Source of the DNA: Candidatus Nitrososphaera gargensis Ga9.2
GTDB lineage: Archaea; Thermoproteota; Nitrososphaeria; Nitrososphaerales; Nitrososphaeraceae
Direction: 5' to 3'
Assembly: GCF_000303155.1 (NCBI RefSeq)
Contig: NC_018719.1
Location: forward strand, 496,001-560,000
DNA: 64,000 nucleotides
Shown: one piece after another, positions 10,434 to 39,328 of the stretch
Layout of the letters: every line of letters begins with the position of its first letter
How positions within the stretch are numbered: position 1 is the stretch's first letter
Translations under genes and position numbers: made by a program
Notes under the pieces: generated by a model
Database searches by the model: none
Told to the model about the DNA's origin: nothing
Seen by the model: only the letters and a program-made list of their open reading frames with translations

Positions 10434-11084
10434 TTGCACATGCTCATTAGGACTCTGACGAAGGTTGCGAGCAGGTATGCACCTAGCAGGGTACTTTCCT
10501 TTGATATGGTTCATATTTTCAAAGCTTTGCAGCTGATGGAGAATGAGGGTCACATAAGCAGAGCCCTATTAACAAAAGAATTAGGACTTGGCGAAGGTGC
10601 CATCAAGACATTGGTAAAGCATCTGAAAATGCAAAATCTTATTGAAACTTCTAAATCAGGTACAAGAATGACTCAGAAAGGTAGGGCCATATGTTCAGCA
10701 TTGGTCTCTGCGGTTCCTGCGGAGACTCGTTTACCAAAATGCTCTGTTGCACTTGGAAAATACAATCATGCAGTTTTGCTAAAAAATCTCAGCTTTGCTG
10801 TAAAATCAGGTATTGAACAAAGAGATGCAGCGGTGAAGATGGGCGCCATTGGGGCTACCACATTATCCTTCAAAGACAGCAAGTTTGTAATGCCTATGGA
10901 CAGCAGCGGATATGATTCATTGGAGAAAGAGCCTAACATAAGGAAACTTTTAGTTGAAAAGCTGAAGCCAGAGGAAGAAGATATTGTGATCATAGGTAGC
11001 GCCAACGACAGTTCAAGGACTGCAGAACTGGCAGCAAAGAATGCGGCACTTGTAACACTTGTGAATCATGAGAAGCATGATTGA
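10434..11084 (+). CDS. HTH regulator with DUF4443 domain
   Basis: About 216 residues. The N-terminal 90 hold a winged helix-turn-helix (HISRALLTKELGLGEGAIKT, LVKHLKMQNLIETSKSGTRM). The remainder matches the DUF4443 pattern, with VALGKYNHAVLLKNLS, AVKSGIEQRDAAVKMGAIGATTL and DIVIIGSANDSSRTAELAAK. Such proteins are archaeal regulators of uncertain ligand. It converges on the Zn/Mn-type ABC operon, so a metal-linked role is possible but only inferred. The true start may be the ATG at about 10507, near the HTH. Confidence 0.7.
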   Translation: MHMLIRTLTKVASRYAPSRVLSFDMVHIFKALQLMENEGHISRALLTKELGLGEGAIKTLVKHLKMQNLIETSKSGTRMTQKGRAICSALVSAVPAETRLPKCSVALGKYNHAVLLKNLSFAVKSGIEQRDAAVKMGAIGATTLSFKDSKFVMPMDSSGYDSLEKEPNIRKLLVEKLKPEEEDIVIIGSANDSSRTAELAAKNAALVTLVNHEKHD

Positions 11085-12983: not shown

Positions 12984-14048
12984 TCAACTCCTTGTGTAAG
13001 TGTTGCTTGGATCGATTCCTTCCAAAGCGTCAGTGTTTCCTCCAAGCGACGTTAGCATTGTATTCATGTTGGCAACCATCATTCCAACATAGGTATTCTC
13101 GGGGTCTCCCGGTTCGCCAGGCAAGTCGTCATCCCTGAGCGTTTCAACGATCTGCACATTGGCTTCTCTTGCTATTTGATCTACGACTTTGCTTGGAAAC
13201 ACTTCAGAAGCAAATATGGCTGGTACTCCTTCTGCACGTATTTGCTCTATTATTCTGGCTACCTCTTGCGGTGTAGGCTCTCCAAAATCTGATGGTTGCA
13301 CAGCGCCAATCACCGTCATTCCATAGCGGGGAGCAAAGTATGCCCAAGAGTCGTGATATGTGACAAGCTTTCTATTGTCAGGCGGAACCGTCTGGACTGA
13401 TTGCATTATACCTTGGTCTAATTCCTCAAGAAGTGCAAGATACTTTTTAGCATTTGAAGAATAATAATCACTGTTCGCAGGATCCATCTCTATCAACTTG
13501 TCTCGAACAAGCTCAGCATACTTCATTGCATGTTGCACGTTGAGCCAGAGGTGTGGATTGGGATCACCTTCCTCTTCAGGGAAGCTAAAATCAAATACCC
13601 ACTGATCACTTGTTATCGTATTATCGGCAAGCTTGAGCAGCTGCAGGTTAGGATTGCCAGCAGCATCAACAACTCTCTCAAAATCAACCTCGAGGTGCAA
13701 TCCATTAATGATGACAAGATCTGCACCTCTTACTACAACTGCATCTGATGGTGTCAGCTCAAATGTATGTGAATTGACCCCCTCTGGAACTATGCCAGTT
13801 AATTCTATCCTATCTCCTCCCACGTTTCTAACTATATTTGTTATTGGTGCAACAGAAGTTACAACATTTAGTTTTCTGGATGATACATTGTCCTCAGCGA
13901 CGGATGAAGAAATAGTATTATCGCTGTTATTATTACCACCGCCGGCTGCATACATGAATAATGATACCCCGGCGATTATTGCAGCAGCTACTCCTATTGC
14001 CACGGCAATTCCAATCAACTTTCCTCTAGAAGGCTGCTGGCTTGCCAT
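12984..14048 (-). CDS. znuA: Zn/Mn-type ABC transporter substrate-binding protein
   Basis: A 354-residue exported protein with an N-terminal helix (about residues 11-33, IGIAVAIGVAAAIIAGVSLF) that anchors it, a Ser/Asn-rich linker, then the cluster A-I binding-protein fold: VTSVAPITNIVRNVGGDRIE, GVNSHTFELTPSD (first His ligand), NPHLWLNV (second), TYHDSWAYFAPRYG (third) and a late acidic ligand. It captures divalent metal (Zn or Mn) outside the membrane. It is first in a tight operon with a TATA box near 14131-14140 and a perfect inverted repeat at the predicted transcription start. Confidence 0.9.
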   Translation of the reverse strand: MASQQPSRGKLIGIAVAIGVAAAIIAGVSLFMYAAGGGNNNSDNTISSSVAEDNVSSRKLNVVTSVAPITNIVRNVGGDRIELTGIVPEGVNSHTFELTPSDAVVVRGADLVIINGLHLEVDFERVVDAAGNPNLQLLKLADNTITSDQWVFDFSFPEEEGDPNPHLWLNVQHAMKYAELVRDKLIEMDPANSDYYSSNAKKYLALLEELDQGIMQSVQTVPPDNRKLVTYHDSWAYFAPRYGMTVIGAVQPSDFGEPTPQEVARIIEQIRAEGVPAIFASEVFPSKVVDQIAREANVQIVETLRDDDLPGEPGDPENTYVGMMVANMNTMLTSLGGNTDALEGIDPSNTYTRS

Positions 14049-16825: not shown

Positions 16826-17302
16826 TCATATTATCGCAACAAAATGCACTTTCAGACTCTTGATTCCGCGATTTTCCGACAGGCTCTTGGCAAGCTCCTT
16901 TATCTTTCTGATCTCTCCTCTGACCATGATTGTTTCTAGGCAGTTGTCATGGTCAAGGTGCATGTGAGTAGTAGCACTTATTATGTCACTATACCTGTGC
17001 TGTATATGCGTGCCAGCGTCATCGTGACTGTATGCATGATTATCGTAGAGCATCATTATTGCTCCAGCTCCATTTCTGCTATCCTCTCCTTTATCCCAGT
17101 CATTTTGGTCAATGAATGAGTGGAGAGCTGTCTGAATTGCCTTTGATCTGTCAGAAAATCCTGCCTTTTTCATGGATTTGTCAAATTCTGATAGCAATCC
17201 TGGCGGTAAAGACATGCTTATGCGCTCAACAGTACCATCTTTCTGTTGTTGCTGTTTCTTTTCCCGTGGGTGTTTGTGGCGTTGATGCTGATCTTTTGGC
17301 AA
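16826..17302 (-). CDS. nikR: NikR nickel-responsive regulator
   Basis: After a basic, glutamine-rich tail come the ribbon-helix-helix domain (VERISMSLPPGLLSEFDKSM, FSDRSKAIQTALHSF) and an ACT-like nickel domain with the conserved ligands (TTHMHLDHDNCLETI: His, His and Cys; a further His in IQHRYSD). NikR tetramers bind palindromic operators when loaded with nickel. It is encoded divergently from the broken binding-protein gene at 17564; GGGCAAGCCC (17322-17331) lies just upstream of its own start. It appears intact. Confidence 0.9.
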   Translation of the reverse strand: MPKDQHQRHKHPREKKQQQQKDGTVERISMSLPPGLLSEFDKSMKKAGFSDRSKAIQTALHSFIDQNDWDKGEDSRNGAGAIMMLYDNHAYSHDDAGTHIQHRYSDIISATTHMHLDHDNCLETIMVRGEIRKIKELAKSLSENRGIKSLKVHFVAII

Positions 17303-17505
17303 GAATGTATGTTCTTAAAAAGGGCAAGCCCATTTTAAGCTTTAAGTATAGTGATATTTTTGAAAAATTTTGCTACTTGAATCCTTTTTTATTGCAACAG
17401 GAATAACAAAGGCTGTTCTTTTGTCATAAGAGCTTGTAAAAGAAGTAGATGTATATGTGAATTTGATACTCCTATTCCGCTGATAGATAGTCGGCAAGAA
17501 AAGTG

Positions 17506-17555
17506 TTGGATAAACCATCCAAGGCTTTTTATACATCCTTGGATGCATCGTCCAA
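17506..17555 (+). promoter_or_regulatory. Promoter with two TTGGAT-N5-ATCCAA-type operators
   Basis: TTGGAT-AAACC-ATCCAA (17506-17522) is a perfect 6+5+6 palindrome directly upstream of a TATA box (TTTTTATAC, about 17525-17533). A second, near-perfect copy TTGGAT-GCATC-GTCCAA (17539-17555) covers the predicted transcription start. The first 17 bases recur exactly before cbtB. Because both downstream genes handle Ni or Co and nikR is the divergent neighbour, NikR is the leading candidate binder; this is inference. Confidence 0.7.
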
Positions 17556-17563
17556 CCATCCGT

Positions 17564-18505
17564 ATGAGGAAAACAATAACATTAAATGCCATGTTATTTT
17601 CTGTATTTGCCTGTCCTCTATTTCTGAACTCTATATTGGCACCAGTTCAAGCACAAGTCCAAAACTCCACTAAATATGGGGGCACACTTATCATCGTCAC
17701 AGGCAGTGGCTGAGAAACACCTACGCTCAATCCAGCGCTATATGGCATCGTCGGAGAATCGTCAAAAATCTTCAGCAGTCTTGTACAGCATGATCTTGAG
17801 TTAAACCCACAACCGGACCTCGCAGAGAGCTGGGGTGTTTCAGAAGACGGCAAAACATATACATTCCATCTTGTGAGAAATGCAACTTTTCACGATGGAA
17901 AGCCGGTTACAAGTGCTGATGTAAAATTCACCAGAGGTGGTGATTCCTTACGATCCTCTTGGCAAAGTCGTTTGGGAAGACTTGACTCGATAGAAACGCC
18001 TGACGAGTATACTGTTGTCTTCAAACTAAAACAGCCTTTTTCTGCCCTGATTTTCATGCTTGACATGGGCTCTGGAGGTCCTCCAATTCTTCCAAAGCAT
18101 CTCTATGAAGGAACTGGCATTCCAAACAACCCGTACAACCAGAAACCAATTGGTAGCGGTCCATTCAAGCTTGTCAGCTGGGAAAAAGGCAACCAAATTG
18201 TTCTTGAAAGGAATGAAAACTACTTCAAAAAGGGCTTGCCATACCTTGACAGAATAATCATGAGAATTATGGCTGACCAAACGGCACTGGCGCTTGCGAT
18301 TGAAAACGGTGAGATAGACTATGCTCCTGTAGGATTATCGTTCTCCGATGCCGAAAGGCTGAAAGAACTAGAAAATATTGATGTTGTCTATTCTGGCCGG
18401 GAAGGATTGGGAGTATTGTTGACACTTGTAATGAATCTAGACAATCCCATTTCAGCTAACCAGAAAGTCATGCAATCAAACAGCTATCCAAGCATGGATT
18501 GTTGA
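17564..18505 (+). pseudogene. Nickel/peptide ABC binding protein, nonsense-mutated and truncated
   Basis: A signal peptide (MRKTITLNAMLFSVFACPLF) leads into the SBP_bac_5 fold: YGGTLIIVTGSG, in-frame TGA (17711-17713), TLNPALYGIVGESSKIFSSL, DLAESWGVSEDGKTYTFHL, FHDGKPVTSADVKF, and NQKPIGSGPFKLVSWEKG. The frame ends at 18505, about 310 codons in, where the family normally runs past 500 residues, so the C-terminal third is missing. It would have bound nickel or oligopeptides for an ABC importer; no permease or ATPase genes follow, and thiC begins instead. Confidence 0.85.
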
Positions 18506-36358: not shown

Positions 36359-38260
36359 TTACTGACCTATTGGATTCTGCTGTTCTGAGGTCAGCTGGCT
36401 CTTCAAGGTAGCAGGAAGGTTCTGCACCCATCCGTTGTATGGAATCGGTGTTGCAAGAACGCCCTGTCCTCCCATGCCAGCGTTTCCTGTGATTGTGTCG
36501 TCTTTTGCTGTTGTGCTTGACGCTGTCAGCAGTATCCTGCCTGCAATCTTTGCATCTGACACATTTCCATCGTTGTTCGGGTCAGCATCCACTACCAGAA
36601 GCGAGTTTGAGAACTTGCTTGCCACGTATGCATAATAGCCGCCGCCGTTCTTGGCACCAAACTGGACACCATGGCATCCTGCATCGCATCCAAGCATTGT
36701 CACTACCTCGTCTGTAGCAGTGTCAACTATTGTTATAGTTGCAGTCAGCGTGTTGGCAGTGACCATGTATTTGCCGTTTGGCGAGACTGGTGTCTGAATT
36801 GGCAGTGCGCCTACTGGGCCTGTAATTGCACCGCTTATCGGATCATAGTTCTCTATCAGGTTTATGGTCTTGATTACCTGACCAAATGTTGTCGAGTTTT
36901 CGTCCATGTCTATGACGCTGATTGTACTATCAAGCAGGTTTGCAACATAGTATTTGCTGTCGTCTGGCATCATGCCTGTTGCAATTGGGATTGCGCCTGT
37001 TGTCGGTTTTGCTTCAATGCTATCTGAATCAAAGCTATACAGAGTCGAGTCAGCAGAGAATGCGTTTGGCGTGACCATCTTTTGTCCATCAGAACTCATC
37101 CAGTGTGCATGAGGATGCGATTCTGGCTCGCCTTCTTTCTGCATCGGAATTTCTCTCTGAATTCCGGTGGCCTTCGGTGCCAGTTCTACGACTGCCTCCT
37201 CGCCATTGAGTGTCACGTGTACCTGGTCTGTGTCTGTCCTTGTCATTACGTGAGCTGGTGATTCTCCAACAGATATGTTCTTCACTAGTTTGCCAGTTGC
37301 AGCATCGAAAACTGTTAGCTTGCTATCGAACCACTGAGTCTGGTAGATCAGCTTCTGATCTCTGTCAGTCCACATGTTGTGCGGGTTGTTCATGTTAATT
37401 GATGGCAGTGCAACCTTGCGCTCAATGTCCCATGTCGTAGTATCAATCTTTGTGGCAGTTCCTGGCTTGCTCTTGTTCTTTGTTAGCTCAAACTGCGTGT
37501 CTACCCATACTTTGCCTACGCCTGCGGTTGATGGGTCAAATGGTGCTTCAAGAGCAATGTCGTTTCCATACCTTGCATTTAGAACGGTTGGAAGGTTCAC
37601 TACTGCGCCGCCTGCAATTCTAATATCAACATTCGGATACGTCACATGCCATGTTGACTGCCTGTAGTCTTGCCAGTTGGATGGTGCTGTAGCAATGAAG
37701 AATGTTCTCAGCAATCTTGTTGCCAAGTCGCTGCTTGTTGGTACTGTAATGCCATTTACTAGGCTGATGTTCTCACCAAGGTCAAGTCCTTGCGTCTGTG
37801 GGTCGTCAACAATCACCGCTCCAAACATGTATGGATGTACCTTGCACGTAAACACGTACAGACCCGGTGTCTGAAGTGTAACAGACTGCGAGCTCTTTGA
37901 TGCCTTTGGCTGGTCAAATGGCATTCCTTGTGCGTTCTGTGGGAATATCAGGCTTGTGACTGTGTGGACAGTGTTTGATCTGATGTTAAAATCAACCCTT
38001 ACCCCAGGTGTTCCAACAGCTAGTGATTGTGTTCCACTGTTTGTGATGTCACCTGCTACGTTTTTGAACCATCTGCCTGGTTCATCGACTAGGTCGAATT
38101 GAACTCTGTTCTCTGAAGAGCTGCCGCTGCTACCGCTTCCACTTGCTGCAAGCGCCATTTGAAATGAATTTGTGATGCTCAATGGCGCTATGAAAATCAT
38201 TGCAGTAAGAATCAGCGATACAGCAACTCCTGAAAACATTAGCTTATTGAGTGCTGTCAT
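36359..38260 (-). CDS. Exported cupredoxin fused to a YVTN-type beta-propeller
   Basis: 633 residues: signal peptide (to about 40), then a cupredoxin domain with ligands in NTVHTVTSL (His) and YVFTCKVHPYMFGAVIV (Cys, His, Met), a type 1 copper site. From about 240 a propeller follows with blades such as QLIYQTQWFDSKLTVFDAA, TGKLVKNISVG, YVANLLDSTISVIDMDE and KYMVTANTLTATITIVDTA. Thaumarchaea use such proteins in extracellular electron transfer or copper handling; the partner is unknown. Its promoter carries the half-site TTGGATAAAC upstream of a TATA-like CTTTATATGG. Confidence 0.8.
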   Translation of the reverse strand: MTALNKLMFSGVAVSLILTAMIFIAPLSITNSFQMALAASGSGSSGSSSENRVQFDLVDEPGRWFKNVAGDITNSGTQSLAVGTPGVRVDFNIRSNTVHTVTSLIFPQNAQGMPFDQPKASKSSQSVTLQTPGLYVFTCKVHPYMFGAVIVDDPQTQGLDLGENISLVNGITVPTSSDLATRLLRTFFIATAPSNWQDYRQSTWHVTYPNVDIRIAGGAVVNLPTVLNARYGNDIALEAPFDPSTAGVGKVWVDTQFELTKNKSKPGTATKIDTTTWDIERKVALPSINMNNPHNMWTDRDQKLIYQTQWFDSKLTVFDAATGKLVKNISVGESPAHVMTRTDTDQVHVTLNGEEAVVELAPKATGIQREIPMQKEGEPESHPHAHWMSSDGQKMVTPNAFSADSTLYSFDSDSIEAKPTTGAIPIATGMMPDDSKYYVANLLDSTISVIDMDENSTTFGQVIKTINLIENYDPISGAITGPVGALPIQTPVSPNGKYMVTANTLTATITIVDTATDEVVTMLGCDAGCHGVQFGAKNGGGYYAYVASKFSNSLLVVDADPNNDGNVSDAKIAGRILLTASSTTAKDDTITGNAGMGGQGVLATPIPYNGWVQNLPATLKSQLTSEQQNPIGQ

Positions 38261-38338
38261 AGCGCCATCGGGTAGAAGACTGTTCCATATAAAGTGCTGA
38301 GTAGTTTATCCAATTTGAGAATAGGGCATGCCTTTAGG

Positions 38339-38366
38339 TTGGATAAACCATCCAAGCTCTTAAATA
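38339..38366 (+). promoter_or_regulatory. cbtB promoter with TTGGAT-N5-ATCCAA palindrome
   Basis: TTGGAT-AAACC-ATCCAA (38339-38355) is identical over 17 bases to the site at 17506-17522 and likewise sits immediately upstream of a TATA box (CTTAAATA, about 38359-38366). Initiation about 25 bases after the TATA would fall at the ATG at 38390, supporting a leaderless cbtB start. Confidence 0.7.
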
Positions 38367-38389: not shown

Positions 38390-38614
38390 ATGTCAGCAGA
38401 CATAAAGAGAAATGTAAGCCAAACAACAACGGGACGGAAACCCAAGATCACAGTTGGAATATTGCTTGGCGTCATGGTTTTTGGCCTTTTCATAGTAGGA
38501 TTTGATCAAGGTCATCTTTTTAGCATTGCACAAGGTGAACAGGCGTACGAGGACCTGTGGATGCACGAGTTCTATCACGATATGAGACACGCAGCAGGAT
38601 TTCCCTGTCATTAG
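38390..38614 (+). CDS. cbtB: CbtB cobalt transporter subunit
   Basis: 74 residues from the ATG at 38390: a basic start, one transmembrane helix (about 17-38, KITVGILLGVMVFGLFIVGF), then the diagnostic metal-binding C-terminus DLWMHEFYHDMRHAAGFPCH. CbtB works with CbtA in cobalt (or nickel) uptake. The ATG at 38390 is chosen because the alternative ATG at 38366 overlaps the TATA box. It appears intact, but the cbtA gene 14 bases downstream is broken. Confidence 0.85.
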   Translation: MSADIKRNVSQTTTGRKPKITVGILLGVMVFGLFIVGFDQGHLFSIAQGEQAYEDLWMHEFYHDMRHAAGFPCH

Positions 38615-38628
38615 TGGTGGTTGAAAAA

Positions 38629-39328
38629 ATGAAAGCAAAAACATTCATTGCAATAACCATTCTTGCTGGAGCTATTGCAAGCACGATTCTTGCGACAATC
38701 AACATTGTAGTTATCGAGCCGTATATCGACAGAGCTATTGAGATCGAAAACCAAAATGCTGCAGCAGCTGGTGAAATGATCAATCCTATTGAATTCCTCA
38801 ATTACAGGCTATTGTAAAAGGGCGGCGAAATATCCACTGGCACTATTCTTGGGATGTCCCTCGGCGCGCTTTTTGGGTAGTCTTTGCATACAGCAGAAGC
38901 TCGATACCGGCATCAAATAACAAAAAGAAGGCTCTGATTCTGGCTGGAATCATGTTTTTCGTTCTCTTTCTAGTACCCCTCAAACCCACCAGCAGTAGGC
39001 GATCCTGAGACAGTCTACTATCGGCAAAGTCTGTACTTGGCAATATCGGGTTTTGGAGCTTTGGGACTTGCATTTCTCTATATAGAAAGATGGGCACAAA
39101 TCAGGTAAAGAAAGTCATTATTCCAGCCCTGTACGCTACGGTAATGATAAGCGCATACTTGGGAATGCCGCCAAACCCTGACGAAATCACAGCGCCAATG
39201 GACTTGGTAACCTGCTTCAGGATCGCAAGTGCCTTTATGACGGCAATGTTCTGAGGACTGCTGGGACTAATCCTAGGTGCGTTCTGGGACAAGACAAAGC
39301 CACATGAGATGGCAAGGATTTCCATATA
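38629..39328 (+). pseudogene. cbtA: CbtA cobalt transporter subunit, decayed
   Basis: MKAKTFIAITILAGAIASTI (first helix) and EPYIDRAIEIENQNA lead to TAA at about 38815. KGGEISTGTILGMSLGALFG then shifts frame to VFAYSRSSIPASNNKKKALI and LAGIMFFVLFLVPLK, shifts again to VGDPETVYYRQSLYLA and LGLAFLYIERWAQI, and once more to KKVIIPALYATVMISAYLGM. A TGA in MF-stop-GLLGLILGAFWD probably replaces Trp. The assembled protein matches the polytopic CbtA family. At least two stops and three frameshifts make it non-functional. Confidence 0.85.

Follow-up and report, generated by a model that had tools for sequence, protein, structure and literature searches.

Two genes in a 64,000-nucleotide stretch of the Candidatus Nitrososphaera gargensis chromosome (the window, the whole stretch of DNA that we analyzed) share a 17-bp palindrome in their promoters, and the question is which protein reads this sequence and what it controls. 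A sequence-only reading of the window had proposed a nickel/cobalt regulon in which the palindrome serves as an archaeal NikR box. The palindrome itself was found as described: TTGGATAAACCATCCAA occurs exactly at 17506-17522 and at 38339-38355, on the forward strand in both cases, and TTGGATGCATCGTCCAA at 17539-17555 departs from TTGGAT-N5-ATCCAA by one mismatch. Both exact copies had been placed beside a TATA box, and TATA-like boxes indeed start 3 to 4 bp downstream of each. The features to which we refer are as follows.

10434..11084, + strand: DUF4443/PH0730-family winged-helix protein, candidate regulator; one of two in the genome; structure model matches 2P8T
16826..17302, − strand: nikR (PF08753, E = 5.8e-27), divergent from the solute-binding protein (SBP) pseudogene; relatives 2BJ1 and others
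17506..17522, + strand: putative operator copy 1, TTGGATAAACCATCCAA, exact; model E = 5.7e-5; upstream of the SBP gene
17526..17533, + strand: TATA-like box TTTTTATA, by sequence reading, 3 bp 3' of the putative operator
17539..17555, + strand: second operator-like copy, TTGGATGCATCGTCCAA, 1 mismatch; 33 bp downstream of copy 1, in the start region
17564..18505, + strand: family-5 SBP, apparent pseudogene; in-frame TGA at codon 50, truncated end
38297..38313, − strand: doubtful degenerate operator, TTGGATAAACTACTCAG; 3 mismatches; genome-wide model E = 2.7
38339..38355, + strand: putative operator TTGGATAAACCATCCAA upstream of cbtB, exact; model E = 1.0e-6
38360..38366, + strand: TATA-like box TTAAATA, by sequence reading
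38393..38614, + strand: cbtB, intact (CbtB, PF09489, E = 3.7e-11)
38632..39325, + strand: cbtA remnant; open for 61 aa, followed by frameshifts and stops

The two exact copies are the only perfect matches to TTGGAT-N5-ATCCAA in the whole single-contig genome of 2,833,868 bp, of which the window spans bases 496001-560000 and in which chance would yield 5e-4 copies of the exact 17-mer and 0.24 of the pattern. Seven sites carry one mismatch. One of these, TTGGATAAACCATCCGA at C1:952571, has the same spacer as TTGGATAAACCATCCAA, abuts a TATA box, and lies upstream of an intact second cbtB-cbtA operon; it was outside the view of the earlier reader and is an independent confirmation of the palindrome. 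We also scanned the genome with a 33-bp promoter model whose training set consisted of cbtB promoters from other genomes, this genome being excluded. At an E value below 0.1, exactly three sites were reported, at window position 38338 (E = 1.0e-6), C1:952570 (E = 1.2e-6), and window position 17505 (E = 5.7e-5). The copy at 17539 was a weak match (E = 1 for the window), and none of the other one-mismatch sites (C1:742386, 929758, 1070533, 1314735, and 1412835) was reported by the model. With only two perfect matches and three strong model sites, the genome-wide scan that had been suggested as a check rejects random occurrence across the genome. A loose pattern allowing three mismatches showed no enrichment in the window (28 matches versus 40 expected), and weak matches alone therefore carry no meaning. 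The degenerate site TTGGATAAACTACTCAG at 38297 abuts the TATA-like box of the divergent gene at 36359-38260 and was not seen upstream of two orthologues of that gene.

The identities given earlier to cbtB (PF09489, 38393-38614) and nikR (PF08753, 16826-17302) were confirmed. The gene at 17564, taken for a nickel/peptide-binding protein, fared less well: it is truncated, its codon 50 is an in-frame TGA, and its best named models scored 53 to 57 bits against cut-offs of 393 to 650, so that nickel specificity is not established. The nearest plasmid-borne relatives listed for it are bacterial ABC substrate-binding proteins with 42 to 45% identity. Orthologues of this gene, which might have shown whether the 17506 site is conserved, were found in none of the 69 other genomes of the family; the site hence lacks an independent phylogenetic footprint, and its support comes from the model trained on other genomes. 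Both transport units downstream of the window operators are decaying, and the 17564 gene looks like a pseudogene. The reading frames at 17564-18505 and 38632-39325 are broken, yet the putative operators upstream of them are intact. An intact cbtA paralogue lies at L031:7870-8598, and the intact cbtBA operon at C1:952 kb has retained both a matching operator and a divergent DUF4443 gene, which occupies C1:951876-952526.

To place the palindrome in a wider context, we surveyed 201 genomes of the order, which hold 132 cbtB genes in 105 genomes, and read all the upstream stretches. Within 300 bp upstream of cbtB, the palindrome was present with at most two mismatches at 100 of the 132 genes (33 perfect, 45 with one mismatch, and 22 with two), against an expectation of 2.5 from shuffled sequences, which bears out the conservation in promoters of relatives that had been suggested earlier as a check. 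The strict pattern gave 44 sites in the 201 genomes versus 1 for a reversed control, and the trained 33-position model found sites in 102 of them. When 58 cbtB promoters with a clear TATA box were aligned, TTGGATAAAYYATCCAA was followed by 3 or 4 bp and then by TATA, and both arms of the palindrome were conserved. A chance origin of the palindrome is ruled out by the expected counts, the reversed control, the shuffled sequences, and the trained model. As judged from these comparisons, the palindrome is a conserved promoter operator across ammonia-oxidising archaea, mostly located 3 to 4 bp 5' of TATA. Three relatives of the same genus (L113, L108, and L119) carry two back-to-back copies upstream of cbtB, of the TTGGATAAACCGTCCAG-TTGGACAAACCATC type. 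Separately, cbtB promoters that lack the palindrome (L067, L243, L271, and similar ones) often retain the TATA-proximal arm ATCCAAGAGCTTAAATA.

Its position beside TATA could mean that the palindrome is a general promoter element, or an RNA hairpin, rather than the site of a regulator, and the persistence of the TATA-adjacent arm ATCCAA in promoters missing the other arm (e.g., L067) would agree with this; we nevertheless consider it highly improbable, given that a 2.83-Mb genome holds only three strong sites restricted to a functional gene set, that both arms are conserved, and that most promoters have the palindrome 5' of TATA, so that it is not expected in mRNA.

If a protein binds the palindrome, the most conspicuous candidate is encoded next to it. 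A winged-helix gene of the DUF4443/PH0730 type is divergent from and near 71 of the 132 cbtB genes, in 69 of the 105 genomes. Among cbtB-bearing genomes, the palindrome was present in 87 of 91 with DUF4443 versus 3 of 14 without it (Fisher p = 1.8e-9), and the association persisted when stratified by genus (p = 5.6e-5; the strata are genera, which is not a full tree test). Within the single genus g43, 15 of 16 genomes with DUF4443 had the palindrome versus 0 of 6 without. From the other direction, 49 of 80 DUF4443 loci in named genomes carry the palindrome with at most one mismatch. The exceptions are four genomes that have DUF4443 and no palindrome at cbtB, and three (G141, G177, and G197) without DUF4443 that nevertheless have a site within 300 bp of cbtB; in G141, a 63-aa open reading frame beside cbtB resembles the DUF4443 N terminus (a sequence reading, unscored).

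The same genomes bear on the NikR proposal, under which nickel-loaded NikR would bind the palindrome and repress Ni/Co uptake genes. Its attraction in the window is plain: a canonical NikR (PF08753), a relative of Pyrococcus horikoshii NikR (2BJ1), is encoded divergently from the SBP gene, and, as with the Escherichia coli NikR operator, the palindrome stands at metal-uptake promoters. However, when we fetched 29 other canonical nikR loci, the palindrome was found in none. NikR_C proteins occur in 159 of the 201 genomes, including all 14 cbtB-bearing genomes without DUF4443, and 11 of these 14 lack the palindrome. Conversely, G131, G143, G161, and G182 have no NikR_C match and keep a one-mismatch palindrome upstream of cbtB, although the absence of NikR from three of these four is uncertain, their assemblies being estimated as less than 90% complete. 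The E. coli NikR site is GTATGA-N16-TCATAC (PMC7055735), a different sequence with its arms 22 bp apart, twice the 11 bp of TTGGAT-N5-ATCCAA. That NicO permeases, which are among the genes behind the palindrome, can carry nickel also speaks for NikR, but the targets as a whole belong to cobalt and B12, as described below. G147 can be read both ways, since a NikR-like gene adjoins its cbtB, yet this genome, devoid of DUF4443, has no palindrome. Taken together, the nikR loci, the co-occurrence across genomes, and the site geometry do not support NikR as the regulator of the palindrome, and we consider an archaeal NikR box quite unlikely; the case against it is weakest for the 17506 site, since no orthologous site occurs in other genomes. 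The NikR-like gene of G147 (L222, G147:C2:109194-109907) belongs to a second, lower-scoring class and lies directly upstream of cbtB; as G147 has lost both DUF4443 and the palindrome, this is possibly a change of regulator.

We therefore return to DUF4443 as the candidate regulator. The protein encoded at L031:6877-7527 matches both DUF4443 (PF14544, E = 9.7e-34) and the PH0730-like winged helix (PF22167, E = 1.2e-7). An AlphaFold model of the window copy (pLDDT 91) has as its best match PH0730 of P. horikoshii (PDB 2P8T; Foldseek E = 2e-10), followed by the CggR DNA-binding domain, and a phmmer comparison of the DUF4443 protein with PH0730 gave E = 1.6e-12. PH0730, a hypothetical protein of the same DUF4443 family, has neither a known target nor a known ligand. 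The winged-helix fold is similar to that of the CggR DNA-binding domain (7OYK) and of DtxR/MntR, the MntR and DtxR matches being weak; unlike proteins with the CggR effector domain or the DtxR metal-binding domain, the C-terminal domain here is DUF4443, with no invariant Cys or His. The window gene at 10434-11084 (+) is 65% identical to the cbtBA-linked copy, lies 28 kb from the window cbtB, and adjoins a cluster of metal ABC transporter genes, among them a ZnuA-like one on the − strand at 12984-14048.

We then considered the genes that follow the palindrome at sites without cbtB. It was found upstream of NicO-family permeases (L159, L160, L166, L168, and L295; the family names at L159 and L166 and that of the NiCoT at L168 rest on likeness to L160 and L295), the CbiX cobaltochelatase (L163 and L304), a MetE protein (L297), and CbtA (L299, L300, and L302). 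At L171, two operators in tandem, as at 17506 and 17539 but 30 bp apart, precede a BtuFCD-like importer, which is followed by DUF4443; at L168, CbiX and DUF4443 are divergent from NiCoT. At L293 and L294, the site overlaps the start of an ECF S-component gene (a match under its cut-off), downstream of TATA, with DUF4443 downstream of the operon. Further sites precede CsoR-type genes, either paired with a His-rich membrane protein (L161, L301, L303, and L305) or alone (L167), and some precede genes of unassigned role (L162, L164, L169, and L170); the CsoR-type targets and the large secreted protein of L162 are a poor fit to B12; at L172 to L174, pattern matches fall inside genes. DUF4443 itself shares operons with CbiX (L168), the BtuFCD-like importer (L171), NiCoT (L166), the ECF S component (L293), and CobB/CbiA (L107). 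In family f13, CobB/CbiA follows DUF4443, yet the palindrome was not found there, so other DUF4443 members may read other operators.

The pairing of palindrome and DUF4443 extends to Bathyarchaeota, in which the names of neighboring genes were assigned by sequence reading: L374 has a letter-identical operator upstream of a BtuFCD-like operon with DUF4443 nearby, and L375 and L389 have one-mismatch sites in the region that separates DUF4443 from a divergent S-component operon. In all, CbtBA, NicO permeases, BtuFCD-like importers, CbiX, and MetE each stand behind a site in at least one genome, B12 transport and MetE resting on few genomes. This gene set points to a regulon of cobalt/B12 genes rather than nickel genes. 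The proposed Ni/Co-uptake regulon hence stands in part: the operator is shared by metal-uptake genes, while targets such as CbiX, BtuFCD-like importers, and MetE suggest cobalt and B12 rather than nickel.

It could also be that the palindrome is bound by an unlinked regulator, for example, the second class of NikR-like proteins, a CsoR-type repressor, or a DtxR-family protein, with DUF4443 being only a neighbor in the same pathway. The shape of the palindrome alone names no protein, and the sites at CsoR-type genes (L161, L167, L301, L303, and L305, in a survey of such genes that covered part of the genomes) are what autoregulation would produce. Against these points, DUF4443 is itself a predicted DNA-binding protein that is adjacent and divergent in most genomes, the site is lost together with DUF4443 inside genus g43, and sites accompany DUF4443 in Bathyarchaeota too, which makes an unlinked regulator unlikely. 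On the combined sequence comparisons, we consider it likely that a DUF4443/PH0730 winged-helix factor regulates cobalt and cobalamin supply in Nitrososphaeria and Bathyarchaeia, with the palindrome as its operator.

Cobalamin riboswitches are known to control the transport of both cobalt and B12, the biosynthesis of B12, and isozymes of B12-dependent enzymes (PMC3766115). The targets found here (CbtBA and NiCoT, BtuFCD-like importers, CbiX, and MetE) fall mostly into the same classes as the bacterial cobalamin riboswitch (RF00174) regulon. Unlike RF00174, which is a leader RNA, the element here is a DNA palindrome beside TATA with a linked predicted DNA-binding protein. RF00174 was missing from 200 of the 201 genomes of the order, this genome included; the sole match, L313 (G005:C5:1565-1799, 66.9 bits), may stem from contaminating DNA in a draft genome.

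Which ligand DUF4443 might sense was approached from the protein and from its targets. Across 38 aligned DUF4443 sequences, no invariant Cys or His that could form a metal site was found, and thus the ligand is not readable from sequence; His27 and His63 are present in 37 of the 38 rows, and an H-x-x-H motif near the C terminus in 27. The lack of an invariant Cys or His leans slightly toward a corrinoid or another small molecule, the CsoR-type targets lean toward a metal, and the target genes overall would favor cobalt or a corrinoid. We see a slightly less than even chance that DUF4443/PH0730 is an undescribed, ancient archaeal factor that senses cobalamin itself and, through the 17-bp operator, does the job of the bacterial B12 riboswitch in Nitrososphaeria and Bathyarchaeia, governing the import of cobalt and of B12, corrin synthesis, and the MetE isozyme.

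Our working model is that DUF4443 acts as a one-component transcription factor that regulates how much cobalt and cobalamin (B12) the cell obtains. The operator has 6-bp arms 11 bp apart from center to center, about one helical turn, and a DUF4443 dimer would bind TTGGATAAAYYATCCAA directly upstream of the BRE/TATA element and, where a second copy is present, also over the start region. An ample supply of cobalt or of a corrinoid would lead to repression of cbtBA and the other cobalt/B12 genes, and scarcity to their release; the effector would be cobalamin or Co2+. We propose repression rather than activation because sites cover the start region (17539; L293 and L294).

In the open-access literature, we found no paper that mentions the DUF4443 family, and PH0730 appears there only as an entry in a transcription factor family table, with no published function found. 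If our proposal is true, it would provide the first function for Pfam DUF4443. A 2015 study by Doxey et al., cited in PMC7819960, reportedly implicated ammonia-oxidising archaea in global cobalamin production, and cobalt/B12 control in these organisms can now be tested with a predicted operator, a candidate regulator that has a solved, unannotated structure (2P8T), and a list of targets. Among archaea, a 2009 survey of nickel and cobalt use found CbtX as the sole "other predicted cobalt transporter" (PMC2667541).

Two further groups of genes recurred in the survey. In Nitrosopumilales-like genomes, a His-rich membrane protein is repeatedly paired with a CsoR-type repressor gene (L161, L165, L301, L303, and L305). 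A family of small proteins without a Pfam match (151 aa in L169) has the palindrome upstream in two genera (L164:1-202, L169:2464-2919, and L170:2174-2629) and is a possible new member of the regulon.
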